NCBI RefSeq assembly: GCF_007559025.1
Contig: NZ_CP041765.1
Coordinates: 2,724,679-2,788,678, forward strand
Direction: 5' to 3'
Origin: Tomitella fengzijianii
GTDB lineage: Bacteria > Actinomycetota > Actinomycetes > Mycobacteriales > Mycobacteriaceae
DNA: 64,000 nt
Shown here one piece after another: positions 3,959 through 18,485 of the stretch. The stretch's first letter is position 1, and each line of letters starts with the position of its first letter. The position numbers and the translations under genes are program-made. The notes below the pieces were generated by a model. The model ran no database searches. It was not told the origin of the DNA and was given only the letters and a program-made list of their open reading frames with translations.

Positions 3959-4001
3959 GCCCGCAACCTTACAGGTTCCGTATACAGATAAGGACAGTGT
4001 G

Positions 4002-4430
4002 ATGGCCCCACACAGGACCGCCGCGGCGAAGGCCCGCCAGCACCGCGCGCTGCGGATGCGCGTCGCGGGCGCCAGCTACGACCGGATCGCCGCCGACCTC
4101 AAGACGACACCGGAACGTGCCCGTGCCGCCGTGGTGGACGCGTGCGCCGACCTGGAGAACGACCCGCCGGAGATTGCGGCCCGCCTGGAACTGGAACGGC
4201 TGGACACGATGCGCGCCGGATTGTGGAAGGCCATCGGCCGCGGCGACACGAAAGCGATCGGCCAGGCCATGAAGATCGACGAGCGCCGCGACGAGGTACT
4301 CGCCGGCCTGGCACGCCCGGACGACCAGACCGGCCCGACCGTGGCCGAGCGTCTGCACGCCATCAAGACCGCGGCCGCCGACGACGCACCCGGCGCCGAG
4401 CTGTACAGCATCGACGGAGGACGACCATGA
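4002..4430 (+). CDS. HTH protein upstream of terminase, small-terminase-like
   Basis: A 142-residue protein with ATG at 4002 (an in-frame GTG at 3999 is the alternative). The first 50 residues contain a helix-turn-helix (RMRVAGASYDRIAADLKTTP), followed by the motif RLELERLDTMRAGLWKAIGRGD and a helical AMKIDERRDEVLAGL. This arrangement of an HTH plus ExxRLDxLxxxxWxxA is frequent in phage genes just before terminase and resembles small terminase subunits. It overlaps the next gene by 4 nt. With the P27-like protein at 3174 it makes a second candidate small subunit. Confidence 0.6.
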   Translation: MAPHRTAAAKARQHRALRMRVAGASYDRIAADLKTTPERARAAVVDACADLENDPPEIAARLELERLDTMRAGLWKAIGRGDTKAIGQAMKIDERRDEVLAGLARPDDQTGPTVAERLHAIKTAAADDAPGAELYSIDGGRP

Positions 4431-4735
4431 CCACGATCGACACCGACACCGGTCTCGCCGCGTCGACGGCCCGCGCCGTGGCCCGCATGACCTGGCTGAC
4501 CGACACCGACCAGGCGACCGTCGACCTGGCCATGCGCTACGCCCACCAGATCGACGCCGCGCTCGAGCGTGGCGGCCAGGACGCCACGAAGGGCATGCAC
4601 TTGGGCCCGCACCTACTTCGCGCGCTGGACACGTTGGGTGGCACCCCGGCCGGCCGCAAGGCGATCGAGTCCGGCGACGATTCTCCGACCAGCGCGCTCG
4701 CCCGCATGCGCAGCGCCCGCCGAAGTGGCGCGTAA
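4427..4735 (+). CDS. Small protein preceding terminase, unknown function
   Basis: A 102-residue protein with ATG at 4427 in an ATGA overlap with the upstream gene; it overlaps the terminase GTG by 11 nt. It is helical throughout (ARMTWLTDTDQATVDLAMRY, LGPHLLRALDTLGG). The pattern of a short all-helical protein directly coupled to the large terminase again resembles small terminase subunits of Gordonia- and mycobacteriophages, but no diagnostic motif is seen. Confidence 0.6.
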   Translation: MTTIDTDTGLAASTARAVARMTWLTDTDQATVDLAMRYAHQIDAALERGGQDATKGMHLGPHLLRALDTLGGTPAGRKAIESGDDSPTSALARMRSARRSGA

Positions 4736-6251
4736 GGGCCGCACCGAGCCGCGCGTCTGGACTCCGCCGGCCCGCGAGCTGACGCCGGAGACGTCGCTCG
4801 GTTTCGAGGCCATCACGTTCGCCGAGGACGTTCTCGGCATCACCCTGTTTCCATGGCAGAAGTGGGTACTGATTCATGCCCTGGAGCTGAACGAGGACGG
4901 CAACTTCCGCTTCCGCACCGTCCTGCTCCTGGTGGCACGCCAGAACGGCAAGAGCACGCTACTGCTGGTGCTCACCTTGTGGCGCATGTTCGTCGACGAA
5001 GCCCCGCTCGTGTTGGGCACCGCCCAGAACTTGGACATCAGCGAAGAGCTGTGGCAGGAAGCGCTCGACGTTGTGCAGGCCACCCCGGACCTGGCCGACG
5101 AGGTCCCCGATTCGTCGGTGGTGAAAGCTAACGGCAAGAAGTCGTTCCGCACCCGCGACGGCCAGCGCTACAAGGTCACCACCGCCAGCCGTAAGGGCGG
5201 CCGCGGCCTGTCCGGCGACCTCATCCTGCTCGACGAGCTCCGCGAGCACGCCACGTTCGCCGCCTGGTCCGCCGTCACCAAGACGACGATGGCCCGCGCC
5301 CGCGCGCAAATCTGGGGCGCCTCCAATGCCGGCGACACGCTGAGCATCGTCTTGCGCCGCCTGCGAGCGCTCGCCCACCGTGATCTTGGCTGGCCGGACG
5401 GCGACGACGAGTCCGAGGCAATCGGGCTCGGCGCCACCGTCCTTGACGACGACGAGGACGACGACACCGCCGACGACAGCCTCGCCCTGTTCGAGTACTC
5501 CGCCCCGCCCGGATGTTCGGTCGCCGACCGCGACGGCTGGACCTACGCGAATCCGTCGCTCGGCTACTCGATCACCGAGCGCGCGATCGCCGCCGCCATG
5601 CGCACCGACCCCGAACCGGAGTTCCGCACCGAAGTGCTGTGCCAGTGGGTCTCCAGCACCGCCCCGGCCCCGTTCCCCGTCGACGACTGGCAGGCGACGC
5701 TCGACAACGACAGTCGGTTGGACCCGGCATCGGTTACGATTGTGGCAATAGACGTGTCCTGGTTGAGAGACCACACGTTCATTGCCCGCAGTGGCTTCCG
5801 CCGCGACGGCACGCCACACGTGGAGATCACCGCTTCCCGGCCCGGCACCGATTGGGTCATGGACTGGCTCGAAGAGCGCCGCGACCGCATCGACGCCGTC
5901 GTGGTGCAGACCAACGGGGCGCCCGCATCGAGTTTCGTCGACAAGATCGACCGCGCCGGTATCCCCCGCATCGACTGGTCCGGCGGCAGGCTGGGCCGCG
6001 CGCACGGCCTGGCCTACGACCACATCGTGAACCACACCGTGCGCCACTTGCAGCATCCCGGCCTGGACCTGGCCGCCGCCACCGCCTACACGAAACGGTC
6101 CGGCGACGCGTGGATCATCGACCGCCGGACGAGCCCGCACGACGCCGCCCCGCTCATCGCGTTCATCGCCGCACTGTGGGCGCTGGACCAAGAGCTGCCG
6201 GACGCTACGCCGATCAGCGCATACGAGGACGCCGACCTCGTATTCCTATGA
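4725..6251 (+). CDS. Terminase large subunit
   Basis: A 508-residue packaging motor subunit. GTG at 4725 is chosen: the product then begins MARKGRTEPRV, upstream sequence belongs to the preceding gene, and a 9-12 nt overlap is common here. The ATPase domain shows Walker A LLVARQNGKSTL and Walker B DLILLDELREH, with FPWQKWVL (adenine-binding Q motif) upstream. The nuclease half shows the acidic TIVAIDVSW strand. It translocates phage DNA into the prohead and cuts it. An acidic low-complexity insert (DDDEDDDTADDS) near residue 250 sits between the two domains. Confidence 0.92.
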   Translation: MARKGRTEPRVWTPPARELTPETSLGFEAITFAEDVLGITLFPWQKWVLIHALELNEDGNFRFRTVLLLVARQNGKSTLLLVLTLWRMFVDEAPLVLGTAQNLDISEELWQEALDVVQATPDLADEVPDSSVVKANGKKSFRTRDGQRYKVTTASRKGGRGLSGDLILLDELREHATFAAWSAVTKTTMARARAQIWGASNAGDTLSIVLRRLRALAHRDLGWPDGDDESEAIGLGATVLDDDEDDDTADDSLALFEYSAPPGCSVADRDGWTYANPSLGYSITERAIAAAMRTDPEPEFRTEVLCQWVSSTAPAPFPVDDWQATLDNDSRLDPASVTIVAIDVSWLRDHTFIARSGFRRDGTPHVEITASRPGTDWVMDWLEERRDRIDAVVVQTNGAPASSFVDKIDRAGIPRIDWSGGRLGRAHGLAYDHIVNHTVRHLQHPGLDLAAATAYTKRSGDAWIIDRRTSPHDAAPLIAFIAALWALDQELPDATPISAYEDADLVFL

Positions 6252-6270
6252 CCCGCAGGAGGAACGCCGC

Positions 6271-7518
6271 GTGAGCCTCGCAACATGGCTCGGCTTCAAG
6301 CCGCGCCCTCTCCCGGCTCCGCACGTGACCGCCGCCCCGATCGTCGAAGTGGTGCTCGAAGGGATCCGCGGTCAGAGCGTGGCGAACCTGTGGCGCGACC
6401 AGCCGCACCTGCGCACGGTGGTCGGCTATCTGGCCCGCAACATCGCCCAGATCGGCCTGCACGTCTACGCCCGCGACGACGACGATGGCCGCACCCGGCT
6501 CCGCACCGACCCGCTCGCCGAGCTCCTACGCATCCCGAACGCCGACCAGACCGGCTATGAGCTGCTGTACACACTGGTCGCCGACCTGGCCCTCTACGAC
6601 ACCGCCTATTGGGCAGTGGCCCGCGACGAGAGCCGCGGCGACGGCCGCTGGTCGATCCGCCCGATCCCGCCGACGTGGGTGGCCAACACCTACGGCAACA
6701 CGGCGTTCGGGTACGGCGGCTACGAGGTCATCTTCCCGGAGAGCGACGGCCGGCCGATCCGAGTCCCCGCCAAGGACATGCTCGTCTTTCACGGCTGGAC
6801 CCCGGCCGACCCGCGCCGCGGAACGTCACCCGTGCAAGCGCTCAAGTCGACGCTGGCCGAGCAGATTAACGCGCAGCTCTACCGCGACCAGCGGTGGCGC
6901 AAGGGTGCCCGCGCCGACGCCTACATTGCCCGGCCGAAGGACGCGCCCGAGTGGTCGAAGGAGGCGCGCAACAGGTTCGTGCGCGCGTGGCGCGACGCCT
7001 ACACCGGCAACGACGGCAGTGACGCCGGCGGCAATCCGTTGCTCGAAGACGGCATGGAGCTCAAGCGCACCGGGTTCAGCGCCAAAGACGACCAGTACGT
7101 CGAAACGTCCCGGCTGAGCCTGGAGACCGTCGCGCAGGTGTACCACGTCAACCCGACCATGGTCGGCCTGCTGGACAACGCGAACTACTCCAACGTGCGC
7201 GAGTTCCGCCGCATGCTCTACGGCGACACGCTCGGCCCGACGCTGGAGCAGATCGCGCAGCGCATCAACGCGTTCCTGGCCCCGCGCGTCGCCGCCGATC
7301 CGACCGCGTACGTCGAGTTCAACGTCAAGGCCAAGCTCCAGGGCAGTTTCGAGGAACAGGCCGCCGTGATGCAGTCCGCCGTCGGCGCCCCGTGGATGAC
7401 CGTCAACGAGGCCCGCGCCCGCGAGAACATGCCCGCAGTCGAGTCCGGCGACGAACTGGTGCAGCCGCTCAACATCACCAAGCCCGGTGCCACCGAGCCC
7501 ATCGAAGCCGCCGACTAA
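6271..7518 (+). CDS. Portal protein, HK97 type
   Basis: A 415-residue protein starting at GTG 6271 after AGGAGGAAC (6256-6264). It follows the terminase by 19 nt and precedes the prohead protease, the canonical place of the dodecameric portal through which DNA enters. Typical family stretches are VVGYLARNIAQIGLHVYAR, the clip/wing region around MLVFHGWTPADPRRGTSPVQ and QVYHVNPTMVGLLDNANYSNV. Length is usual for the HK97 portal family. Confidence 0.92.
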   Translation: MSLATWLGFKPRPLPAPHVTAAPIVEVVLEGIRGQSVANLWRDQPHLRTVVGYLARNIAQIGLHVYARDDDDGRTRLRTDPLAELLRIPNADQTGYELLYTLVADLALYDTAYWAVARDESRGDGRWSIRPIPPTWVANTYGNTAFGYGGYEVIFPESDGRPIRVPAKDMLVFHGWTPADPRRGTSPVQALKSTLAEQINAQLYRDQRWRKGARADAYIARPKDAPEWSKEARNRFVRAWRDAYTGNDGSDAGGNPLLEDGMELKRTGFSAKDDQYVETSRLSLETVAQVYHVNPTMVGLLDNANYSNVREFRRMLYGDTLGPTLEQIAQRINAFLAPRVAADPTAYVEFNVKAKLQGSFEEQAAVMQSAVGAPWMTVNEARARENMPAVESGDELVQPLNITKPGATEPIEAAD

Positions 7519-7591
7519 ACCCACCCGCCCCGCACCGCGCACGGCACCGCCGCGCGCGGCATTCCGTCATGCCTCAAGGAGGTCGACCAGC

Positions 7592-8791
7592 GTGACCGTG
7601 ACCGTCATCGTCGGCCCGCCGTGCGCCGGAAAGACCACCTACGCCCGCAAGCACCACCAGCCCGGCGACGTGCTGGTCGACTACGACGCCATCGCCGACG
7701 CGTTCGGCAGCACCACCCCGTGGGACCCGCCGCCCGCCGTGGAGAAGGTCACCACCGCCGCCCGCAAGGCCGCCATCAAGTACCTACTGCGCCACCCCGA
7801 CAGCGTCGGCGCGCAGATCATCCACAGCACCCCGAACGCCGACATGGTCGCCGAGTACGCCGACGCCGGATTCCGCTTCCACCTCATCGACCCCGGCGTG
7901 GACGAGTGCCTGGAGCGCGCCAAGACCGACGGCCGGCCCGGCCACTTCCCCGCGATCATCCGCGCTTGGTACGCCAACCCGCCCGCACTCCCCGACGCCG
8001 ACGACGGCGAGAAAGGCCGGCCGCACATGTACACCAAGGCCAGCGCCGCCCACATCAAGGCCGGCCCCGACGACGGCCTCACCGACGGCACGTTCACCGC
8101 CTACGCGTCCGTGTTCGGCAACGTCGACAGCTACGGAGACGTCGTCATGCCCGGCGCGTTCGCCGACACCCTCACCGAGTGGAAGGCCAGCGGCAACCCG
8201 ATCCCGCTGCTGTTCGGCCACAACATGAGCGACCCGGACTACAACATCGGCGCCATCACCGACGCCGTCGAGGACGACCACGGCCTGAAGATCACCGCGG
8301 CCCTGGACCTGGACGCCCCGAAGGCCGCGCAGGTGTACCGACTGCTGAAGGGCAAGCGCATCAACCAGATGAGCTTCGCCTACGACGTGCTCGACGCCGC
8401 CGAGGGCACCCGCCAGAACACCGACGGCGACCCCGTCAGCGTGTTCGAGCTCCGCAAGCTGCACCTGCACGAGGTGTCCGTTGTGCCCATCGGCGCCAAC
8501 GACCAGACCGAAGTACTCGCCGTCAAGACGGCCCACCGACTCGCCGACCGCGTCCGCGCGGACGGCGCCGCCGGGCGCGTAATCGCCCCGGCCACCATCG
8601 ACGAGCTCAAGGCCGCGCACGACGCGTTCGGCCGGACGCTCGCCACCATCGACAGCGCGAAGGCCAGCAACGACGGCCCGCCCGATCCCGCAAGCCCCGA
8701 CGGGGGCAGCCGCGAGAAGGCCAGCCCGACAGTGCCCGCCGCCCGTGTCGACGCCATCATCCGCATCCTTGAAGAGGAGAACCGAGCATGA
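7592..8791 (+). CDS. P-loop kinase-like domain fused to prohead protease
   Basis: A 399-residue product starting at GTG 7592, fixed by a strong Shine-Dalgarno AAGGAGG (7576-7582). Residues 1 to about 135 form a small P-loop domain with Walker A VGPPCAGKTT and DYDAIADAFG, resembling AAA_33/zeta-type nucleotide kinases. From about residue 146 the sequence is an HK97-type prohead protease: TFTAYASVFGNVDSYGDVV, LLFGHN with the putative catalytic His, and INQMSFAYDV with the putative Ser. The protease releases the capsid delta domain during maturation. An in-frame ATG at 8027, preceded by GAGAAAGG, could give the protease alone (254 aa). The fusion is unusual. Confidence 0.85.
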   Translation: MTVTVIVGPPCAGKTTYARKHHQPGDVLVDYDAIADAFGSTTPWDPPPAVEKVTTAARKAAIKYLLRHPDSVGAQIIHSTPNADMVAEYADAGFRFHLIDPGVDECLERAKTDGRPGHFPAIIRAWYANPPALPDADDGEKGRPHMYTKASAAHIKAGPDDGLTDGTFTAYASVFGNVDSYGDVVMPGAFADTLTEWKASGNPIPLLFGHNMSDPDYNIGAITDAVEDDHGLKITAALDLDAPKAAQVYRLLKGKRINQMSFAYDVLDAAEGTRQNTDGDPVSVFELRKLHLHEVSVVPIGANDQTEVLAVKTAHRLADRVRADGAAGRVIAPATIDELKAAHDAFGRTLATIDSAKASNDGPPDPASPDGGSREKASPTVPAARVDAIIRILEEENRA

Positions 8792-10047
8792 AGCTCAAGG
8801 AGAAGCGCGCCGCCGAGCTGGCCGCCGCCCGCACCGTCGTCGACGCCGCGAAGGCCGCCGCCCGCGACCTCACCGCCGACGAGAACACCACGATCGAAGA
8901 GCACCTCGCCGAGGCCGACCGGGTCAAGGGCCTCATCGACGAGCAGGACCGCGGCACCGACCTCATGCGGCGGCTCGAAGGCATGGCCCCGGAGTCCGAC
9001 GCCGGCACGCCCGGCGCGAAGGACACCGGCGACGAACCGGCCGCCAAGTCTCTCGGCGACCACTTCGTCAAGCACGCCCACGACCGGATGGTCGAGCTGA
9101 AGGGCTACAGCGGCGCGTCCGCCGCGGCCCCCGAGTTCGTCAAGACCAACACGGACACGCACGTCATCGGCGACTGGGCCGACGGCGCGCCCGTGCTCAC
9201 CGACGTCGACCGCACCATCGTCCGCGACTACCGCGAGCCGCTGGTCGTCGCCGACCTGCTGGGCACCGGCACCATCAGCGGCAACGCGATCAGCTACTTC
9301 GTCGAGGGCGCGCTCGAGGGCGAGTTCAAGAACGTCGCTGAGGCCGCGAACAAGCCGCAGCTGCACGTGAAGAACCCGACCAGCGAGGTCGACGCGCTCA
9401 AGAAGATGGCCGGATTCATCGACCTCTCCGACGAGTTCGTCGAGGACGTGCCGTTCCTGGTCACCGAAATCAACAACCGGCTGCTCTACGAGCTCCGCGC
9501 CCACGAGCAGCGCCAGCTGCTCCACGGCAACGGCACCGGCAGCAACATCAAGGGCATCTTCAACCGCGGCATCCAGACCCACGCCGCGGCCGACACCGCC
9601 GAGACCGCGCAGGCCGACGCGATCTTCCAGGCCGGCACGAAGATCACCACGGCGACCGGCATGTCCGCCGACGGAATCGTCATCAACCCGCTCGACTACC
9701 AGCGGTTCCGGCTCGGCAAGGACGGAAACGGCCAGTACATGGGCGGCGGCTACTTCGGCGGCGCCTACGGCAACGGCGGCATCATGCAGACCCCGCCGCT
9801 GTGGGGACTGCGCACCGTGGTCACCCCCGCGGTCGAGCAGGGCACCGTCCTGGTCGGCGCGTTCCGCCAGTCCGCGACCGTCTACCGCAAGGGCGGCGTG
9901 CGCGTCGAGTCGACGAACAGCGACCGCGACAAGTTCACCAGCAACATCGTGACGATCCGCGCCGAGCAGCGCATCGCGCTCGCCGTCCGCCAGCCGCTCG
10001 GCTTCGTCAAGGTCGACATCGCAGGTGATGCGTCGGGGGAAGCCTGA
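8788..10047 (+). CDS. Major capsid protein, HK97 fold
   Basis: A 419-residue protein whose ATG overlaps the protease stop (ATGA). The first roughly 95 residues are charged and helical (ELAAARTVVDAAKAAARDL), the expected scaffold-like delta domain cut off by the protease. The remainder matches the HK97 major capsid family, with FIDLSDEFVEDVPFLVTEIN, LLHGNGTGSNIKGIFN and a C-terminal VTIRAEQRIALAVRQPLGFV. The normal-frame C-terminus GDASGEA is identical to that of the major tail protein, and a -1 shift on the preceding G-run would extend the protein by 20 residues (to 10100). Confidence 0.93.
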   Translation: MKLKEKRAAELAAARTVVDAAKAAARDLTADENTTIEEHLAEADRVKGLIDEQDRGTDLMRRLEGMAPESDAGTPGAKDTGDEPAAKSLGDHFVKHAHDRMVELKGYSGASAAAPEFVKTNTDTHVIGDWADGAPVLTDVDRTIVRDYREPLVVADLLGTGTISGNAISYFVEGALEGEFKNVAEAANKPQLHVKNPTSEVDALKKMAGFIDLSDEFVEDVPFLVTEINNRLLYELRAHEQRQLLHGNGTGSNIKGIFNRGIQTHAAADTAETAQADAIFQAGTKITTATGMSADGIVINPLDYQRFRLGKDGNGQYMGGGYFGGAYGNGGIMQTPPLWGLRTVVTPAVEQGTVLVGAFRQSATVYRKGGVRVESTNSDRDKFTSNIVTIRAEQRIALAVRQPLGFVKVDIAGDASGEA

Positions 10048-10100
10048 CCCCCGGACCCGGCACCCTGCCCGGACCGGACACCTACCCGCGCGCTGAATAA
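10027..10100 (+). other. Putative -1 frameshift cassette and extension, capsid gene
   Basis: The 0-frame reads TCG GGG GAA GCC TGA. A -1 slip on the run CGGGGGAA (10034-10041) skips the stop and reads GSLTPG, then PGTLPGPDTYP and RAE to TAA at 10098-10100. The first 22 nt (10027-10048) are identical to 12567-12588 in the major tail gene, and the -1 frame peptide beyond is nearly identical there too. Inferred from sequence; not proven. Confidence 0.6.
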
Positions 10101-10106
10101 CCCCCA

Positions 10107-10138
10107 CCGGCCCGGCCGCACACCAGCGGCCGGGCCGG
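10107..10138 (+). terminator. Strong GC hairpin after the capsid gene
   Basis: A perfect 13-bp stem (10107-10119 with 10126-10138) with a 6-nt loop ACACCA lies 7 nt past the frameshift-frame stop. No T tract follows. It probably limits downstream transcription, as is common after capsid genes. Confidence 0.6.
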
Positions 10139-10167
10139 CCCCGCACCCACATCAGGAGGCAGCGGCC

Positions 10168-10344
10168 ATGCCGCTCTACACCGTGACCGTCAACGGCATC
10201 CCGCACACGATCGACGCCACCGAAGAGCAGGCACGCCGCTACCGCAACGCCCGCCCCGCCGACGACACCCACCCGGCGCCGGAGGCGAAGGCCCGCGCCC
10301 CCCGCAACAAGGCCCGCACGGCCCGCACCAAGGCCGCCAAGTGA
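10168..10344 (+). CDS. Small basic phage protein, 58 aa
   Basis: ATG at 10168 has a perfect AGGAGG (10154-10159). The protein begins PLYTVTVNGIPHTIDATEEQ, a beta-hairpin-like stretch, and ends in a strongly basic Ala/Lys/Arg tail (RNKARTARTKAAK). Its stop overlaps the GTG of the next gene (GTGA). It sits where head-tail junction genes begin, so a minor head or DNA-binding role is possible, but no family is recognised. Confidence 0.65.
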   Translation: MPLYTVTVNGIPHTIDATEEQARRYRNARPADDTHPAPEAKARAPRNKARTARTKAAK

Positions 10345-10922
10345 CCGAACCCGCCGCCGAGCTCCCGCCGATCATCAGCGCCGACGAGCTCGCCGACCTC
10401 ACCGGCGGGGAAGTCGACGCCGACGACCACACCCGCCGCCAGCTCGCCGCCATCACCACCGCCATCCGCAACCGATGCGGCTGGCACATCGCCCCCGTCA
10501 TCACCGAAGACCTCACCCTCGACGGCCCCGGCGGCTACGACCTCGCCCTGCCGACGTTGCGCCTGGAGGACATCGAGCAGATCACCGACGCCGGCACCAC
10601 GATCGAGTCCCCCGAGTGGTCGAGACTCGGCAACGTCCGCAAACCCGACCGGCGCCCGTGGTCGACCCGCTACCAGGGCATCACCGCGACCATCCGCCAC
10701 GGATTCGACGCGCCCGCCGACCTGGCACTGCTCATCGCCGAACTGGTCGCCCAAGCGGTCAACGCACCGGCCGGCACCGCGAGCGCCACAGAGAAGTTCG
10801 GCCCGTTCAGCTTCACCGGCGCCGCCGCGACACCGGGCGCCACGTTCGCCATCGGCGGCGCCAGCTTGCTCGCCGCGCAGTCCGCAGTGCTGGACCGCTA
10901 CCGCCTGGAAGTCGAGCCCTGA
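10341..10922 (+). CDS. Head-tail connector, HK97 gp6-like
   Basis: A 193-residue protein starting at GTG 10341 in a GTGA overlap. The N-terminal helical part (ISADELADLTGG, then RRQLAAITTAIRNRCGWHI) and the following LRLEDIEQIT are typical of adaptor proteins that bind under the portal (HK97 gp6, SPP1 gp15). Its place directly after the capsid gene supports this. Confidence 0.7.
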   Translation: MTEPAAELPPIISADELADLTGGEVDADDHTRRQLAAITTAIRNRCGWHIAPVITEDLTLDGPGGYDLALPTLRLEDIEQITDAGTTIESPEWSRLGNVRKPDRRPWSTRYQGITATIRHGFDAPADLALLIAELVAQAVNAPAGTASATEKFGPFSFTGAAATPGATFAIGGASLLAAQSAVLDRYRLEVEP

Positions 10923-11239
10923 TGGAGAAGGTCACCCGGATCCGCCGCAGCCCCGGCGGCCACGACCTCAATGGCGACCCGATCCCGTCGACCGAGGACC
11001 GCAAGACGATGCGGGCCCGCGCCGTCGCCCCCGGCACCAGCAAGCCCTACACCGACGTCGGCCGCAACGGCGAAACCGTCGAGTACACCGTCTATTTCAC
11101 GCGCGTCGTCGACATCGCCGACCGCGACCTCCTGGAAGTCCGCGGCCGCACCTACACCGTGCGCGTCGCCGACTGGATCAGCCCGTTCGGCACCGGCCGG
11201 CGCGGCATCGTCGTCGAAGCAACCCGAAAGGTCGGCTAA
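10922..11239 (+). CDS. Head-closure / stopper protein
   Basis: A 105-residue protein with ATG at 10922 overlapping the previous stop by one base. It is small and beta-rich (VEYTVYFTRVVDIADRDLLEVRGRTYTV), as are head-completion proteins of the SPP1 gp16 class, and it is the second gene of the head-tail junction series. The assignment rests on order and size more than on motifs. Confidence 0.6.
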   Translation: MEKVTRIRRSPGGHDLNGDPIPSTEDRKTMRARAVAPGTSKPYTDVGRNGETVEYTVYFTRVVDIADRDLLEVRGRTYTVRVADWISPFGTGRRGIVVEATRKVG

Positions 11240-11523
11240 TGGCCAAGCCCGTCCGACTGGACCGCCGCGGCGTGGGCGAAGTCCTGAAGTTCACCGCCCG
11301 CGACGCCGTCGACGCGCTCGCCGCCCAGGTCGCCGACAACGTCGCGGTTCCCGCGAAGTACAACATCCCCGCCGACGCTGTCACCGTCCGCCGCTACCGC
11401 ACCGACCGCGGCGCCGCCTCGGTCGACATCAACCACAACGCCGCGACCCGCGCGCAGATCACCGACGGGATCCTCACCCGCGCCGCCGCGGCGGCCGGCC
11501 TCCAGGTCACGTCCCGCCGATGA
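11239..11523 (+). CDS. Head-tail connector, HK97 gp10-like candidate
   Basis: A 94-residue protein with ATG at 11239 overlapping the preceding TAA. An N-terminal helix (FTARDAVDALAAQVADNVA) is followed by a beta-rich middle (VTVRRYRTDRGAASVDI). Third in the connector series between capsid and major tail gene; such proteins usually join the stopper to the tail terminator. No diagnostic motif is seen. Confidence 0.55.
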   Translation: MAKPVRLDRRGVGEVLKFTARDAVDALAAQVADNVAVPAKYNIPADAVTVRRYRTDRGAASVDINHNAATRAQITDGILTRAAAAAGLQVTSRR

Positions 11524-11906
11524 TCCGCCACCAGGACGCCGCGCTCGTCGTCAAGACGGTGCTCGCCGGCCGCATGAACGTCGCCGAACCGGACGTGACC
11601 GTCGGCGTCGCACTGCCCGACGACTACAAGCCCGCCAAGCACGGCGACATCGTCGTCGTCGCTACCGACGGAGGCCCGGATCGGGTCGCCGCCGCCTGGC
11701 ACACCATCCGCCTCACCGCCTGGTCGGCCCGCCGGTCCCGCGCCGTCGAGCTCGCCGATACCGCCTACGCGCTCCTACGCACCCACAACGGCACCGGCGG
11801 CATGCAACGGCCCCGCCCCGGCACGTTGACCCTGGTCGACCGCGACCCGCGCACCGACGCCTACATCGCCGGCAACACGCTCACCGCGCCCATCCGGCCC
11901 CGCTGA
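11520..11906 (+). CDS. Tail terminator protein
   Basis: A 128-residue protein with ATG at 11520 in an ATGA overlap. The alternating pattern (RLTAWSARRSRAVELADTAYALLRTH) and position directly before the major tail gene fit the tail-terminator family that caps the growing tail tube and joins it to the head. A 78-bp gap with the Shine-Dalgarno AAGGAGC separates it from the major tail gene. Confidence 0.65.
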   Translation: MIRHQDAALVVKTVLAGRMNVAEPDVTVGVALPDDYKPAKHGDIVVVATDGGPDRVAAAWHTIRLTAWSARRSRAVELADTAYALLRTHNGTGGMQRPRPGTLTLVDRDPRTDAYIAGNTLTAPIRPR

Positions 11907-11984
11907 CCGGCGCCCGAATCCCCACCCGGCCGCGGGTGGACACCCCACCGCCCACGCCCACCGCTACCGCAAGGAGCAAGGCCC

Positions 11985-12587
11985 ATGGCCAAGAACACCG
12001 ACAACGCGAGCATCTACGACCTCGGAGAGGTGTGGATCGCCGACAGCCTGGACACCCCCGACCCGGAGCCCGGCGTCCCGTTCTACAACGAGGAAACCGG
12101 CAAGGCCCTCGAAGGCTGGACCGAGGTCGGCCTCATGGACGGCGACGACGGCATGACCACGTCCCGCGACCAGGACAAGAACAAGCACTACGCGTGGGGC
12201 GACATCCTGGTCCGCCAGTCCCGCCAGAAGTTCACCCTGTCGCGCAAGTTCTCCGCGCTGGAGGACAACCCGACCACCCGCAGCCTCATCTGGCCCGGCA
12301 GCACGGCGCGCACCATCGTCACCCCGAAGCCCAAGCCGATCAAGATGGCGTTCGTCAAGCACGACGGCGACGTGACGGTCCGCGAGATCACGAAGAAGCA
12401 CGCCGAGGTCGACCTCGACGGCGACGTGAACGAGAACGAATCCGACCTGACCAAGTACGAGCTCGTCGCCGACATCTACCCGCTCATCAAGGGCAAGACC
12501 GGCGAGTACTTCAAGGTCGAGAAGTTCGACGCCGACGGCAACGACCTGCTGTCCGACGAGGACGGCGATGCGTCGGGGGAAGCCTGA
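11985..12587 (+). CDS. Major tail protein
   Basis: A 200-residue tail tube subunit with ATG at 11985 and Shine-Dalgarno AAGGAGCAAGG (11971-11981). It starts AKNTDNASIYDLGEVWIAD and has the acidic, beta-rich composition of siphovirus major tail proteins. Its C-terminus GDASGEA is identical to that of the major capsid protein, and the gene end carries the same G-run/stop cassette, allowing a 23-codon -1 extension to 12649. A hairpin with a 10-bp stem lies just past the stop. Confidence 0.85.
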   Translation: MAKNTDNASIYDLGEVWIADSLDTPDPEPGVPFYNEETGKALEGWTEVGLMDGDDGMTTSRDQDKNKHYAWGDILVRQSRQKFTLSRKFSALEDNPTTRSLIWPGSTARTIVTPKPKPIKMAFVKHDGDVTVREITKKHAEVDLDGDVNENESDLTKYELVADIYPLIKGKTGEYFKVEKFDADGNDLLSDEDGDASGEA

Positions 12588-12649
12588 CGCCCGGTAGCGG
12601 CACGCTACCGGGCCCCGACACCATCCCGACCGCAGGACCGAAGGACTAG
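12567..12649 (+). other. Putative -1 frameshift cassette and extension, tail gene
   Basis: The same CGGGGGAA run (12574-12581) and stop as in the capsid gene. A -1 shift gives GSLTPGSG, TLPGPDTIP and TAGPKD, ending at TAG 12647-12649. Over 17 aligned codons with the capsid extension, 15 residues are identical; 7 codons differ silently and only 2 change the residue. The frame then continues, past the TAG and one codon, into the collagen-like gene at 12653. Confidence 0.65.
12590..12612 (+). terminator. Hairpin directly after the tail-gene stop
   Basis: CCCGGTAGCG (12590-12599) pairs perfectly with CGCTACCGGG (12603-12612) with a GCA loop, starting 2 nt after the normal stop. It may terminate transcription or stimulate the -1 frameshift 10 nt upstream. 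The capsid counterpart lacks an equally good stem. Confidence 0.5.
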
Positions 12650-12652
12650 GCA

Positions 12653-12922
12653 ATGGCCTACAGCAAGCAGACCTGGAACAACGACGACCCCGAGACGCCG
12701 CTCAGCGCCGAGCGCATGACCCACATCGAGGACGGCATCGCCGCCAAGGCCGAACAGGGACCGCCCGGCAAGGACGGCACCGACGGCGCGCCCGGCAAGC
12801 AGGGTGACCCCGGCAAGGACGGCGCGCCCGGCGCCGATGGGGCCGACGGCTTCCCGTCCGAGTCGCAGTGGAACGACCTGGTCGCCCGCGTCGACGCGCT
12901 CGAAGAGACCGCGGGCGCATAA
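12653..12922 (+). CDS. Collagen-like phage protein, 89 aa
   Basis: ATG at 12653. Residues 1-30 (QTWNNDDP, then LSAERMTHIEDGIA) form a module also found at the start of the 157-aa tail protein at 24641. Residues 37-67 are about ten Gly-X-Y triplets (GPPGKDGTDGAPGKQG and on), a collagen-like trimeric rod; the end (WNDLVARVDALEETAGA) looks like a short coiled coil. It probably forms a trimeric fibre on the virion. It lies in the same reading frame as the -1 extension of the major tail protein, separated by one TAG. Confidence 0.75.
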   Translation: MAYSKQTWNNDDPETPLSAERMTHIEDGIAAKAEQGPPGKDGTDGAPGKQGDPGKDGAPGADGADGFPSESQWNDLVARVDALEETAGA

Positions 12923-12937
12923 CGCCCGCCCCCGAAC

Positions 12938-12977
12938 GTCACCCGGCTCGGTTACGTGGGGTGCCGGGCCGGGTGAC
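12938..12977 (+). repeat. Inverted repeat in the leader of the 109-aa gene
   Basis: GTCACCCGGC (12938-12947) and GCCGGGTGAC (12968-12977) are perfectly complementary across a 20-nt loop, between the collagen-like gene and the tail genes. Terminator or mRNA structure; no T tract. Confidence 0.4.
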
Positions 12978-13011
12978 CACCACCCCCACCAGCCCCACCA
13001 GAGGACCCCGC

Positions 13012-13341
13012 ATGCCAGCCCTGCCCAGCGAACTCGACATCAACGCCGCCGCCCGCCGACTCGGCATCGCCAACGACGACGGCCGCGCGCACCACCGCGA
13101 CCGCGGCCGACTCGCCGAAACGATTCTCCGCGCCGAAGCCGAGGCCGCGCACGCCGCCGACCACGCGGCCGAGCAGCAAACCCACCCGACCGCGCGCACG
13201 CTCGCCGCGCTGCACGACGACCTCGTCGACGAAGGCATCCCCGAGCCCGCGCGCACCGCCATCCTCGGCGCCGCCGCGCACACCCACACCGCCCGCCACG
13301 GCATCACCCTCACCGACGACTTGGAAGGCCCCACCCCATGA
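13012..13341 (+). CDS. Tail-region hypothetical protein, 109 aa
   Basis: ATG at 13012 after AGAGGACC. The protein is helical and Ala/His-rich (EAEAAHAADHAAEQQTHP). No family is recognised. Its position between major tail gene and tail assembly chaperones, and the ATGA overlap with the chaperone gene, place it in tail assembly. Confidence 0.55.
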   Translation: MPALPSELDINAAARRLGIANDDGRAHHRDRGRLAETILRAEAEAAHAADHAAEQQTHPTARTLAALHDDLVDEGIPEPARTAILGAAAHTHTARHGITLTDDLEGPTP

Positions 13342-13808
13342 GCACCCGCGACGATGAGCTGATCGGCGTCTACGACGACGAGGCCCCCGACTACCGGCCC
13401 GGCCCCACCTACACGATCAGCGACGACCTGGACGACTACGCCGACGACGAGCCCGCAGCCCGCCCGGCGCCGCGGCCGCAGCGTCGCCGCGGCCCCAACA
13501 TGGACCGCGCGCCCCGCCCGGCCGACCGCCGCCGGCCCCGCCCGCAGGTCCGCCGCGAAGCCGAGGGCGACGACACCGTACAGATCGACTACCGCGGCCA
13601 CACCTACACCGTCCCCGCCGACCAGGACGACTGGAGCATCGACGCGCTCGAAGCGTTCGAGCGCAACCACGTCGTCGCCGGAGTCCGCGAGCTGCTCGGC
13701 CCCGAACAGTGGGCACGGTTCAAGGCCCGCCACAACAACCGGCGCGCGTTCCGCGGATTCCTCGACGAAGTGTCCGACGTGTTCGGGTTCGGCGACGCGG
13801 GAAACTGA
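13338..13808 (+). CDS. Tail assembly chaperone, G-type
   Basis: A 156-residue protein, ATG at 13338 overlapping the previous stop. The N-terminal half is acidic with Arg/Pro-rich stretches; the C-terminal part (TVPADQDDWSIDALEAFERN, then LLGPEQWARFKARH, FLDEVSDVFGFG) is typical of phage tail assembly chaperones that coat the tape measure. It ends at TGA 13806 directly after a canonical slippery heptamer, so some ribosomes shift -1 and continue in the T frame. Confidence 0.8.
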   Translation: MSTRDDELIGVYDDEAPDYRPGPTYTISDDLDDYADDEPAARPAPRPQRRRGPNMDRAPRPADRRRPRPQVRREAEGDDTVQIDYRGHTYTVPADQDDWSIDALEAFERNHVVAGVRELLGPEQWARFKARHNNRRAFRGFLDEVSDVFGFGDAGN

Positions 13809-14185
13809 TCGGCCTCCTACGGCTCCTGGCAGAACAGCAGGACGCCGTGGAGGCCGACCTACACCGCTACTACGGCATCGACTACCGCGACAGGTGGCGG
13901 CGCGACACGCGCGGCCGCCGGAACCTCACCCTCCGCATGATCTGGGTACGGGTGCGGCACCTGCCCCGCGAGTCCGCCACACAGATCCACCTCAACGGCG
14001 GCCAAATCGCATGGGGATGGACCGAGTACCTGCTCGCCGACCTGTGGGCACTCACAGCCCGCAAACGTCACCCGCACCGGCCGACACCCCCGGCCCGCAA
14101 GCAGCGTGACGCCGCCATCGACCGCGAACGCCAGCGCCGCGCCGCCCGCAAACGCGCCCGCACCCGCCGTGCCCGCACAACGTAG
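13338..14185 (+). CDS. Tail assembly chaperone, GT frameshift fusion
   Basis: Predicted -1 frameshift product of about 282 residues: the G protein to Gly-Lys at 13804, then LIGLLRLLAEQQ through LHRYYGIDYRDRW and a basic tail (RERQRRAARKRARTRRAR) to the stop at 14185. The T part is a classic chaperone C-terminal segment and has no convincing own start; its frame is exactly -1 relative to G, as in lambda G/GT. The fusion recruits major tail protein to the tape measure. The stop is 11 nt before the tape measure ATG. Confidence 0.8.
13799..13805 (+). promoter_or_regulatory. Programmed -1 slippery site GGGAAAC
   Basis: In frame it reads G GGA AAC TGA, a canonical X-XXY-YYZ heptamer; both tRNAs re-pair on GGG AAA after a -1 slip. 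It immediately precedes the G stop codon. Confidence 0.85.
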
Positions 14186-14196
14186 GAGCCGCCCCC

Positions 14197-17100
14197 ATGC
14201 CTAACGTCGGCTACGCGACCCTGAGCATCATCCCCGTCGCCAAGGGCATCGAGGGCAAGCTCGCCAACGCCGTCGGCCCCGGCGTCAAAGCCACCGGCCT
14301 CAAAGCCGGCAAGCAGATGGGCGACGCCGTCGCCCAAGGCCTGGACCAGGCCAAGGCACAGGTCCAGGCCGCCAGCGAGAAGCTGGCCAAGGCCCGCGGC
14401 AAGGAAGAGGACACCGCCAACAAGGTCCGCGTCGCCGAGCTCAAGCTCCAGGAGCTCCGCGACTCGGGCCGCGCCAAGGCATCGAGCATCGAGGCCGCTG
14501 AGGGCCGCCTCACCAAGGCCAAGCGCGACGCCAAGACCGCCAGCGACCAGACCGCGGCCGCCGAGAAGAAGCTCACCGCCGCCAACGACGACCTCGCCAA
14601 GGCCAGCGACACCACCAGCGACAAGGTCGGCCTCCTGCACAAGGCCACCGGCAAGGCCGCGGGCGGGCTCGGCACGCTAGGCGAGGCCATGGCCCGCATC
14701 CCCGGCCCGATCGGCGCCGCCGGCATCGGCATCAGCGGAATGTCCACCAAGTTCGGCGAACTCGCCGACAGCAGCACCGGCGCCCTGGTCTCCAAGGAGA
14801 ACCTCGGCAAGCTCGCCGTCGGCGCCACCGCCGTCGCCGCCACCGTCGGCACCGCCCTGTACAAGATCGGCTCCAGCTTCGACGACGTCTCCGCGACCAT
14901 CCGCATCGGCACCGGCGCCACCGGCGACGAACTCGCCGGACTGGAGGACGTAGCCACAAGCATCGGCACCACCATCCCCGTGTCGTTCGGCGACGCCGCC
15001 GACGCCGTCACCACCTTGAGCACCGCCACCGGCGCCACCGGCGACGACCTGGAAGCACTGTCCACCCAGGTCCTCAACGCATCCCGCCTACTCGGCGAGG
15101 ACGCCGCATCGAACGCCGAAGGCTTCGGCAAGGTCCTCAACCAGTGGTCCATGGACGCAGGCCAGGGCGCCGACGCCGTCGACGGCCTGTTCAAGGTCAC
15201 CCAGACCTACGGCAGCAGCTTCGGCAACCTCACCAACCAGCTCAATACCTACGGCAGCGTGTTGCAGAACGCCGGATTTTCGATGGAGGACAGCGCCGTC
15301 CTGTTCGGCAAGCTGGAACAGTCCGGCCTATCGGTCAGCCGCATCATGCCCGGCCTCAACAAGGCGTTCCGCGATTGGGCATCCGACGGCAAAGACGTCA
15401 AGGCCACCCTGCAAGAGCAGGTCGACGCCATCAAGAACGCCGAAACGTCCACCGACGCGCTCGCCATCGCCACCGAGCAGTTCGGCGCCGAAGGCGCCCA
15501 GCGCCTCACCACCGGCATCCGCAACGGCAGCTTCGCTATCGACGACCTGGCAGGTTCGCTCGGCGACACCACCGGCATCGTCGCCGAAGCCGACCAGGAC
15601 ACCCGCACGTTCGCCGAATCCTGGCAGATCCTCAAGAACAAGGGCCTGGAAGCCATCAAGGGCCCCGCCGAGAAGGTGTTCGGCCTCATCACCACCGGTG
15701 TCAACGCCGTCGCCGACTTCGCCGGCCAGAACGAGTGGGTCGCCGACACCCTCAAGACCGTCGGCACCATCCTCCTGCCCATGGTCGGCACGTTCCTCGG
15801 CATCGTCGGCGCCGTCAAAGCGTGGACGATCGCGCAGGCCGCCCTCAACGTCGTGATGTCGATGAACCCGATCGGCCTCATCATCACCGCGCTCGTCGGC
15901 CTGGTCGCCGGTCTCGTCCTCGCCTACAAGAAGTCCGAGACGTTCCGCAACATCGTCCAGGCAGCGTGGGAGGGCATCAAGACCGCGGTCTCCGCCGTGT
16001 GGAACGGATTCCTCAAGCCCGTGTTCGCCGCCTGGAAGGTCGCCTTCAAGGCGGCCGGCACCGCCGCGACCTGGCTGTGGAACAACGCCATCGTGCCCGC
16101 CTGGAACGGCATCAAGGCCATCATCAGCGGCGCATGGACCGGCGTCATCGAGCCGATCTTCGACGGCTTCAAGTCGGCCATCGACATCGTCGGCGACGCC
16201 GCAACCTGGCTGTATGACAACGCGATCAAGCCCGCGTGGGACGGCATCAGCAGCGCCATCGGCGCCGTGTGGGACTTCATCAGCCCGATCTTCGACAAGC
16301 TCGGCGCCGCGTTCGGCACCATCGGCGACATCGCCAGCAACGTCGGCGACGGCATCAAGACCGCGTTCAGCGGCGTAGTCGGCGTAATGAAGAAGCCCCT
16401 CAACATGCTCGGCGAGGTACTGAAGAAGGTCCCCCGCTCGATCTTCGGCTTCGACATCCCCGGCGCGTCGACAATCCACGATTGGGGCGAAACCCTCGCT
16501 GGCCTGGCCACCGGCGGCACCATCGGCGCCCGCCGCGACAGCCGCGGACGACTCACCGGCCCCGGCACCGGCACGTCCGACAGCATCCTCGGCGTCAACG
16601 GCCGCGGTATCCCGCAGGTCCGCGTATCGACCGGCGAGACCGTGATGAACAAGCGCACCAGCGACGCCAACCCGGAACTACTGGCAGCACTAAACGCCGG
16701 ATGGGTCCCGTCGCCCGCGTTCCTCGCCGCGATGATCCCCGGCCTCAGCCGCGGCGGCGTCGTCCAGGCCATCGCCCAGTCCGCCGCCGACCACGGCATG
16801 GGACGCCAAGGCGCCGTGATCGGCACCATGACCGGCCTGGCCGAATCCGGGCTCCGCGTCCTCGCCAACCCCGCCGTGCCGGACTCCTACAACTACCCGC
16901 ACGACGGCGAAGGCTACGACCACGACAGCATCGGCGTGTTCCAGCAGCGCCAAGCCGGATGGGGCACCACCGCCGACCGGATGGACCCCAAGCGCAGCGC
17001 CGACATGTTCTTCGACGCCCTGGCCGGCGTGCCCGGCTGGGAGACGATGGACCCGGCGCTGGCCGCGCAGGCAGTGCAGCGGTCGGCATTCAGTGACGGC

Positions 17101-17589
17101 AGCAACTACCGGCCCCACCTACCGGAGGCCGAGCGTCTGGTCGACCAGGCCGGAGACCTGCCCGATTCCTCGGAGTTCAACGGGCTCGGCCCGTCCGGCG
17201 ATCTTCCCGGCTTCGGCGATACCGGCGCCGACCCGTCGACCACCAGCGGCGCCGCCGCCACCGGCGCCGCCTACGACGAATCCATGGGACAGAAGGTGTA
17301 CGTCACCAACTGGCCCAGCAGCTACAGCAGCAGCACCGGAGGAACGGCGACGCTCGCCCCGGCAACCGGCACCACCAGCCCGGAGGCCACCGCAGTCGAC
17401 GCCGACGACACCAAGGGCCCGCTCGCCCAGGCCCGCGGGTTCATCGACGACAACGGCGAGGACATCGCCGAAACGCTCGCCGGACTCGGACTCGGCATCA
17501 CCGTCAACAACTACGGCCCCAACCCCGTCGGCGCGTGGAAACGCGCCGCCGACCGGCGCGTACGAAAGGTCAGGCTGTCCAACCGATGA
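14197..17589 (+). CDS. Tape measure protein with muralytic C-terminal domain
   Basis: At 1130 residues this is the longest phage gene here and sets tail length. Residues 40-135 are a charged coiled coil (KAQVQAASEKLAKARGKEED). A hydrophobic segment at about 525-590 (MVGTFLGIVGAVKAWTIAQA, then PIGLIITALVGLVAGLVLAY) is the usual membrane-active region. Repeated WNGI/WDGI blocks follow. From about residue 848 a lysozyme-like domain is visible: TGLAESGLRVLAN with a candidate catalytic Glu near 883, DSIGVFQQRQAGWGT, and ADMFFDALAG, suggesting local peptidoglycan cleavage during DNA entry. The stop overlaps the next ATG. Confidence 0.92.
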   Translation: MPNVGYATLSIIPVAKGIEGKLANAVGPGVKATGLKAGKQMGDAVAQGLDQAKAQVQAASEKLAKARGKEEDTANKVRVAELKLQELRDSGRAKASSIEAAEGRLTKAKRDAKTASDQTAAAEKKLTAANDDLAKASDTTSDKVGLLHKATGKAAGGLGTLGEAMARIPGPIGAAGIGISGMSTKFGELADSSTGALVSKENLGKLAVGATAVAATVGTALYKIGSSFDDVSATIRIGTGATGDELAGLEDVATSIGTTIPVSFGDAADAVTTLSTATGATGDDLEALSTQVLNASRLLGEDAASNAEGFGKVLNQWSMDAGQGADAVDGLFKVTQTYGSSFGNLTNQLNTYGSVLQNAGFSMEDSAVLFGKLEQSGLSVSRIMPGLNKAFRDWASDGKDVKATLQEQVDAIKNAETSTDALAIATEQFGAEGAQRLTTGIRNGSFAIDDLAGSLGDTTGIVAEADQDTRTFAESWQILKNKGLEAIKGPAEKVFGLITTGVNAVADFAGQNEWVADTLKTVGTILLPMVGTFLGIVGAVKAWTIAQAALNVVMSMNPIGLIITALVGLVAGLVLAYKKSETFRNIVQAAWEGIKTAVSAVWNGFLKPVFAAWKVAFKAAGTAATWLWNNAIVPAWNGIKAIISGAWTGVIEPIFDGFKSAIDIVGDAATWLYDNAIKPAWDGISSAIGAVWDFISPIFDKLGAAFGTIGDIASNVGDGIKTAFSGVVGVMKKPLNMLGEVLKKVPRSIFGFDIPGASTIHDWGETLAGLATGGTIGARRDSRGRLTGPGTGTSDSILGVNGRGIPQVRVSTGETVMNKRTSDANPELLAALNAGWVPSPAFLAAMIPGLSRGGVVQAIAQSAADHGMGRQGAVIGTMTGLAESGLRVLANPAVPDSYNYPHDGEGYDHDSIGVFQQRQAGWGTTADRMDPKRSADMFFDALAGVPGWETMDPALAAQAVQRSAFSDGSNYRPHLPEAERLVDQAGDLPDSSEFNGLGPSGDLPGFGDTGADPSTTSGAAATGAAYDESMGQKVYVTNWPSSYSSSTGGTATLAPATGTTSPEATAVDADDTKGPLAQARGFIDDNGEDIAETLAGLGLGITVNNYGPNPVGAWKRAADRRVRKVRLSNR

Positions 17590-18485
17590 CACTCCCGCTG
17601 TACACGCCGACCACCGCGGGCACATTCTTCCCCGGCGGCCGCGCACAGATCATCCTCACCGGCCCCGGCGCCCCGGCCGGCCTGCCCGAGCGCGCATGGC
17701 ACCTGTCCACCGGCGCGCAAGGCGTCGTCCACGCCGACGGATGGGGCGACATCGACACCCCGCCGACGAAAAACGTGTGGTGGCAGTCCGCAGGCCGGCC
17801 CGGCGCAAAATGGCTCGGCGCCGTCGTCAGCCCCCGCGAGTTCGACCTGCCCATCCACATCGCCGACACCGACCGCGCCGACTGGCCCACCGTCTACGCC
17901 CGCCTCATGCAGGACATCGACCACGAACATCCCGCCCGGCTGCACATCGTCACCCCCGCCGGCTACACCATGCTCGACGTCCGCCTCGGCGACGGCGGCA
18001 TCAGCCACGAGTACGTGCACGACCCGGCGCTGGAGGGCATCGAGACGTTCGCCGTGCCGCTGGTCGCCGAACAGCCCTACTACACCGGTATCGAGGACAC
18101 GCACACGTGGACGCCCGGCCGTACTCCGCGCCCGGTCCGCAACCGCGGCGACCGGCCCGCCTGGCCCGTCTACATCGTCAAGGGCCCCGGCATGCCGCAG
18201 CTGCCCGACGGCAACGGCCACAACACCGTCACGCTGCCCGCAGCGCTCGAAGAAGGTCAGGTCGCCCGCGTGAACACCGACCCGGACGAACGGCGCGTCG
18301 TCGTCAACGACGGCGAGAAACTGTGGCCGCTGGTCGGCCCGCAACGATTCCGCCACCCCGTACCCGCCGGCGGCATGCTCAAGCTCGGCAATCTGCGCAT
18401 GCACGGCGCCACCGACGCCAGCAGCATCACCGCGATCATCACCCCGCGGTGGCGCACCCCGTGGAGGCCCGCCCATGGCCTATGA
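17586..18485 (+). CDS. Distal tail (Dit-like) minor tail protein
   Basis: A 299-residue protein with ATG at 17586 in an ATGA overlap with the tape measure gene. The beta-rich N-terminal half (WWQSAGRPGAKWLGAVVSPR, EFDLPIHIADTD) and C-terminal half (RPAWPVYIVKGPGMPQLPDG) match the siphovirus distal tail protein family that caps the tube and holds the tip. It overlaps the Gp37-like gene by 11 nt. Confidence 0.75.
   Translation: MTLPLYTPTTAGTFFPGGRAQIILTGPGAPAGLPERAWHLSTGAQGVVHADGWGDIDTPPTKNVWWQSAGRPGAKWLGAVVSPREFDLPIHIADTDRADWPTVYARLMQDIDHEHPARLHIVTPAGYTMLDVRLGDGGISHEYVHDPALEGIETFAVPLVAEQPYYTGIEDTHTWTPGRTPRPVRNRGDRPAWPVYIVKGPGMPQLPDGNGHNTVTLPAALEEGQVARVNTDPDERRVVVNDGEKLWPLVGPQRFRHPVPAGGMLKLGNLRMHGATDASSITAIITPRWRTPWRPAHGL

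Follow-up and report, generated by a model that had tools for sequence, protein, structure and literature searches.

Why should the genes for two shells of one phage, its head and its tail tube, end in the same letters, and why should the -1 reading frame beyond both stops spell a similar peptide? The question is raised by a prophage in the 4.0-Mb genome of the actinobacterium Tomitella fengzijianii, within the stretch of 64,000 nucleotides (contig NZ_CP041765.1, positions 2,724,679 to 2,788,678) that was analysed and is here called the window. Our answer is that programmed -1 ribosomal frameshifting very probably puts a few C-terminally extended copies of the protein, each bearing a short tail, on each shell: the signature, read from sequence, consists of a conserved -1 frame, slip sites and a hairpin. 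From this signature we infer that the shift occurs, at which codon and how often, and that the long forms enter the virion.

Capsid and tail genes with a common end

The features concerned are the two genes, their putative slip sites and the predicted extensions.

8788..10047, + strand: major capsid protein; 0-frame product of 419 amino acids with C-terminal GDASGEA; Pfam Phage_capsid, E 1.5e-34; phrog_10 major head protein, E 9.7e-60
10035..10041, + strand: putative slip site G GGG GAA of the capsid gene, 0-frame TCG GGG GAA GCC TGA; exact slip codon presumed
10038..10100, + strand: predicted -1 extension of the capsid protein, GSLTPGPGTLPGPDTYPRAE then stop; 20 residues, TAA
11985..12587, + strand: major tail (tube) protein; 0-frame product of 200 amino acids with C-terminal GDASGEA; Pfam Phage_TTP_17, E 1.9e-7; phrog_117 major tail protein, E 6e-21
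12575..12581, + strand: putative slip site G GGG GAA of the tail gene; the identical site is found in 8 of 22 genes
12578..12649, + strand: predicted -1 extension of the tail protein, GSLTPGSGTLPGPDTIPTAGPKD then stop; 23 residues, TAG

The preliminary description of this DNA had claimed that both genes end in the same 22 nucleotides (nt), and they do (10027-10048 and 12567-12588, GATGCGTCGGGGGAAGCCTGAC). A 24-base pattern around the shared end, with at most three mismatches allowed, occurs at these two places only in the window and in none of 100 shuffles. The same description read GSLTPG(P/S)GTLPGPDT(Y/I)P in the -1 frame beyond both stops; translation returns this stretch in both extensions, where it follows the hexapeptide-repeat pattern PGxxT[FL]PGxxT[FYI]P. 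In the capsid copy the -1 frame is open from just 18 nt 5′ of the 0-frame stop. The coding arrangement for a C-terminally extended product is present on both genes. Re-initiation was considered as a source of the peptide, and no ATG, GTG or TTG was seen in the short -1 frame of the window capsid copy before GSLTPG. The extensions, of 20 and 23 residues, consist of Gly/Pro-rich repeats and are not of the immunoglobulin-like (Ig-like) kind: such a fold is excluded on length alone, because they are too short.

The tail is an addition to the capsid protein: the motif is absent near the stop in all 30 other relatives of the major capsid protein (31 loci were examined including the window's own, and three pairs are duplicate sequences). 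The best of these relatives (54-56% identity) stop within a few residues of where GDASGEA starts in the window protein.

Related tails in other phages

A search of related phages for the -1 extension, proposed in the preliminary description, found a related tail (PGxxTFPGxxxFP) lying across the gene stop in 13 further phages or phage groups; Rousseau (a Brevibacterium phage), Murphy and Kumao (Mycobacterium phages) and Yeezy (a Gordonia phage) are examples. With the window this makes 14, with 22 distinct tails. In 8 of the 14 the tail is on two genes: capsid and tail tube are both tailed in the window, L064, L065, L081, Rousseau, L114 and Murphy (L numbers are our own labels), and L112 has the tail on a decoration protein and the tail tube, the head-decoration host being seen once. 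The tail-bearing genes belong to capsid families phrog_10 and phrog_283, tail-tube families phrog_117, 2491, 3884 and 10909, and head-decoration family phrog_122.

An 18-base pattern run over virus contigs led to prophages L064 and L065 (DNA about 78-81% identical to each other), whose tail-tube proteins end DDSGEA over TCGGGGGAAGCCTGAC, with -1 tails beginning GGSLTPGDTTFPG, and whose capsid genes carry PGRLTPGDHTFPGEQTFPTIN and PGRLTPGANTFPGEQTFPTS, likewise at -1. A second pattern returned 13 stretches, of which six came from three contigs already known, three were real and new (L073, L078 and L081) and four were chance (L074-L077); a third returned 23, four already known, four new with a -1 tail (L101, L103, L112 and L114) and 15 without. 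Rousseau was found through GenBank relatives and has the arrangement on both genes. Ten blastn records matching 59 bases of L081 lay on the other strand or in unrelated genes and were taken as chance. Across 394 genomes of the class the -1 motif pattern matched in two, namely this one (at both genes) and one with a single site lacking a fitting gene end; a reversed control pattern gave one match in one genome. Short-peptide tblastn against the phage collection returned no match, a search too weak to show absence, since tails are present in the collection searched. No PDB chain matched the peptide query.

Two side observations belong here. In Rousseau (OV696622; L088:4840-5420) an antisense hypothetical protein, ROUS_13, is annotated where the + strand encodes the major tail protein (phrog_117), and the tail-tube gene is absent from the annotation. 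In-frame copies of the hexapeptide repeat, for example MTYPGSGTFPGTSTFPG, occur at the start, middle or end of other phage frames (L097, L100, L106, L108, L109, L110, L113 and others).

Conservation of the -1 frame

Between the two window copies the preliminary description had counted nine differing codons, seven silent and two replacing in the -1 frame. These counts stand, but the span is 15 codons (Leu to third Pro) rather than 17; over it the differences at -1 codon positions 1, 2 and 3 number 2, 2 and 7. When four pairs of tails are pooled (selected from 15 compared, as the closest pairs having several differences), 29 of 49 differences fall at -1 third positions (P = 1.8e-4). The remaining 11 pairs comprise five without any difference, two with [1,0,1] and four distant ones with [6,4,7], [4,1,7], [2,3,6] and [4,2,8]; in those four, replacing codons equal or outnumber silent ones.

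In a blastn comparison of window positions 4001-20000 with L081, the sole DNA similarity is a segment of 51 base pairs (bp), 80% identical (window 12563-12613, L081:6101-6151). The shared 51 bp are the frameshift cassette, as if it had moved as a unit. To L073, Rousseau, L078, L112, Kumao and Yeezy the window has no DNA similarity by blastn in the stretch compared.

Putative slip sites

The 22 distinct sites are all -1: G GGG GAA (8), C CCT then stop (7), C CCG GAA (3), G GGA AAA/AAC (3) and G GGT (1). Each has G GGN or C CCN at the slip position, and therefore a P-site Gly or Pro tRNA can step back one base. This fits the P-site slippage suggested in the preliminary description, a Gly or Pro codon with a matching G or C before it being found at 22 of 22 distinct sites. 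The G GGG GAA of the window is not an X XXY YYZ heptamer and, as also suggested, is imperfect for tandem slipping: only the P-site codon can re-pair. A canonical heptamer (G GGA AAA/C) is found in three genes (L078, the L081 capsid gene and the L112 decoration gene). The exact slip codon assigned to the window sites is presumptive and rests on sequence. A sequencing error in the G run was considered and is unlikely, because genes with C CCG GAA, G GGA AAC and C CCT sites show the same -1 arrangement.

A hairpin made by the codons of the tail

The PG....PG repeat is coded CCNGG....CCNGG, and its halves can pair when the two Pro codons end in complementary bases. Two such regions follow the slip sites of the window.

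12589..12613, + strand: perfect 11-bp hairpin after the tail gene, 7 nt past the slip site and formed by codons of the extension
10051..10077, + strand: imperfect hairpin 3′ of the capsid slip site, folding no better than shuffled sequence

The tail gene has a candidate stimulatory structure at a distance within the usual 5-9 nt downstream of a slip site, with a 7-nt spacer, an 11-bp stem and covariation in 22 tails. Its folding scores z -2.22 against synonymous-codon shuffles and z -1.48 against dinucleotide shuffles (16 of 200 fold as well). The central wobble pair is present in 19 of 22 tails (GC 12, CG 4, AU 1, UA 1, UG 1), compared with 4 of 31 control copies of the motif, which lie in long frames at other loci and are mostly in-frame (P = 9e-8). 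These controls were drawn from 16 loci, the frame around the motif needing only to be open over 60 codons, and two rows are from L103; without the L103 rows the comparison is 19/22 against 4/29 (P = 3.7e-7). The outer stem pair is kept in 16 of 22, and none of 500 shuffles matched the paired cells or the covariation score. Clear double changes distinguish the capsid genes of L064 and L065 and the tail genes of Murphy and Kumao. Set against synonymous-codon shuffles, folding is better than the shuffle mean in 14 of 16 tails (mean z -1.36; five with z < -2). Counted by eye, the slip-to-stem spacer is 7 nt in the window tail gene, the L064 capsid gene, L073, L078 and both genes of L081, Rousseau and L112, and is held despite varying numbers of codons before and after the stop.

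The proposal of a -1 slip that gives part of each shell a shared Gly/Pro tail gains support from the 13 further phages or groups with a conserved -1 frame, some canonical heptamers and a covarying hairpin. The mechanism we envisage is as follows. At the ends of the capsid and tail-tube genes some ribosomes would slip back one base on the Gly codon that follows a G (G GGG), assisted in the tail gene by the hairpin 7 nt downstream. Having slipped, they would bypass the 0-frame stop and terminate 20 and 23 residues further on. Each shell would then be a mix of the short form and a few long forms displaying the hexapeptide-repeat tail.

A small fibre-like protein beside the tail

Beginning 4 nt past the tail-gene extension is a gene whose product may be the partner of the tail.

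12653..12922, + strand: small fibre-like protein that may partner the extensions; N-terminal module MAYSKQTWNNDDPETPLSAERMTHIEDGI followed by collagen-like repeats; Pfam Collagen, E 2e-6

This protein also matches phrog_2012 minor tail protein (residues 1-33, E 6.8e-9) and phrog_5711 head fiber (residues 1-34, E 8e-4). The module, searched for by the regular expression W..DD.ETPLSAERMTHIEDGI, is present in 10 of the 11 tail-bearing phages then known (the exception being L103) and in 0 of 17 control regions (P = 8e-7); the controls, each 5 to 10 kb long (L066, L067, L089-L094 and L115-L123), are not a random sample, having been selected as capsid or tail-tube relatives. The module lies after the capsid gene in Rousseau and L078 and mostly after the tail-tube gene elsewhere, and the annotation of the gene varies among records (head fiber, capsid decoration, hypothetical protein).

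Searching the phage collection with the Rousseau module returned 112 other records (68 Mycobacterium, 44 Gordonia). The first four examined, Murphy, Yeezy, Kumao and BaxterFox, have a -1 tail on the tail-tube gene directly 5′ of the module (Murphy also on the capsid gene), and the same -1 tail stands on the tail-tube gene before the module in Lilac, Pumpkin, Madeline and Kita. The window module returned 359 records, the matches listed being minor tail proteins. Of the more than 400 module-bearing records 11 were examined; 8 of these 11, representing 3 of 6 lineages, have the -1 tail.

On this evidence the tail may dock the small fibre-like protein encoded beside it. We regard it as evenly poised whether the frameshift tail is such a docking peptide, with slippage setting the copy number of the small fibre on head and tail tube; behind this reading stand the shortness and repeats of the tail, its occurrence on surface proteins of three kinds and its association with the fibre module even among unrelated host proteins. 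It is also quite possible, if rather short of an even chance, that the frameshift is real and the tail a host-contact or shell-stabilising element unlinked to the fibre gene. The domains that frameshifting adds to the tail protein of lactococcal 936 phages bind hosts (PMC6669499, available text), Wee and Gaia have the fibre module with no motif within 6 kb of it, L103 has the tail and no module detectable by the regular expression, and the tail-tube gene of Rousseau is tailed, yet its fibre gene sits after the capsid gene. Against such an unlinked role stand the co-occurrence of tail and module (10/11 versus 0/17) and the finding that, when phages were picked by the module, 8 of 11 records had the tail. 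As for the host-contact tag suggested in the preliminary description, the genomic context favours docking of a small fibre instead.

Weighing the evidence for frameshifting

Several observations weigh against frameshifting and its tie to the fibre. In the open reading frame listings no tail is found on the tail-tube genes of L073 (phrog_117) and L078 (phrog_2491), and the capsid genes of Kumao, Yeezy, Madeline and Kita are without one. Nor are the rows compared independent, since the DNA of L064 and L065 is about 78-81% identical and both genes of a phage may owe their tails to one recent cassette. The slip site of the window itself, G GGG GAA, is non-canonical. Of four-base sites in E. coli, C_CCU ranks with the better ones, C_CCG shifts weakly and G_GGN hardly at all, and every one of them depends on a strong stimulator (PMC4066793, available text); by that measure the commonest site here, G GGG GAA, is not efficient. 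The window capsid hairpin is unsupported (z +0.40 against synonymous-codon shuffles, z 0.08 against dinucleotide shuffles), 11 of the 22 tails leave the innermost stem position unpaired, and the central pair is broken in the Murphy capsid gene and L103. When the 3′ side is shifted by -3 columns the covariation score is nearly equal (0.199 versus 0.216), although with far fewer paired cells (53.9 versus 87.0%). Finally, three phages matched by the window module (Wee, Gaia and Jabberwocky) lack a -1 tail around it; Jabberwocky has an in-frame relative of the repeat, LYPSATLYPSEDLYPAG, in the gene immediately before the module, and L100, L104, L111 and L113 combine the module with an in-frame motif.

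If, on the other hand, the -1 peptide is untranslated, the gene ends could be a recent DNA duplication (a cassette copy or gene conversion), its conservation being residual or serving a DNA or RNA function. Identity of the last 22 nt makes recent copying of that part plausible. As a full account it is improbable: the -1 peptide is kept in L073, Rousseau, L078, L112, Kumao and Yeezy, which show no further blastn similarity to the window in the stretch compared; the tail also occurs with different slip sites and in different host families; and differences between close pairs favour -1 third positions. Least credible of all is that the stem-loop past the tail gene acts as an intrinsic terminator or a processing signal, the open frame beside it being incidental, for although the 11-bp hairpin is GC-rich and immediately past the stop, no U-run follows it, the next gene begins 4 nt past the extension, same-motif hairpins in long frames elsewhere keep the pair in 4 of 31, the peptide itself is conserved and no Rfam family reaches its gathering score in window positions 9900-12800.

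Relation to known systems

For frameshifting at both head and tail genes the preliminary description had named Listeria phage PSA, which shifts +1, as precedent; Lactobacillus phage A2, with a -1 shift, is closer. The slip site of A2 is CCCAAAA. A2 makes two forms of its major head protein and of its major tail protein by a -1 frameshift late in each gene, an outcome for which the window has the coding arrangement on both genes, but its extension is Ig-like whereas those predicted in the window are about 20 residues of hexapeptide repeats (PMC5009743, available text, including the cited titles Garcia 2004 and Rodriguez 2005). The same text records a frameshift extension in T3, and frameshifted forms from both capsid and tail-shaft genes in Listeria phages PSA, A118 and A500, differing from the window in that PSA uses a +1 shift and A118 and A500 a -1 shift for the coat and +1 for the tail gene (PMC5009743).

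Bacillus phage SPP1 resembles the arrangement proposed for the window in that its tail-tube protein has a frameshifted C-terminal extension in part of the copies (gp17.1*, 3:1), but by a +1 shift at CCCUAA that adds an 87-residue FN3 domain; it also has a collagen-like capsid accessory protein, gp12, there not tied to frameshifting (PMC6316719, PMC8718954, available text). In lactococcal 936 phages a programmed frameshift lengthens the major tail protein (TpeX), as proposed for the window, but there with a large carbohydrate-binding extension and on the tail protein only (PMC6669499, available text). A tail such as that of the window is not mentioned in the available portions of PMC9331655 (Rousseau), PMC13252515, PMC7150772, PMC4524720, PMC9030533 and PMC13313380, and a full-text search of the literature, covering open papers, gave nothing matching the tail, its hairpin or the fibre link. 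As far as the available texts go, then, frameshifted head and tail proteins are already known, and the hexapeptide tail, the codon hairpin and the fibre link were not found in print.

If our reading is right, an unannotated virion feature is widespread in actinobacteriophages, including easily grown phages of Mycobacterium smegmatis, and the stoichiometry of a surface fibre would be fixed by translation rather than by gene dosage or symmetry. The codons of the peptide would double as a frameshift-stimulating hairpin, one sequence being both peptide and stimulatory RNA, and the in-frame hexapeptide repeats of other structural proteins would make this a general plug-and-socket system for actinobacteriophage fibres. 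A testable function is thereby offered for a short conserved tail and for a variously annotated small gene.

Neighbouring genes

Two further features of the window concern neighbouring DNA. At 7487-8791 a single open frame spans an AAA_33-type domain (residues 38-150) and a prohead protease S78 domain (residues 201-348). On the - strand, at 27374-28408, a reading frame that we take to resemble an IS30-type transposase adjoins the prophage genes.

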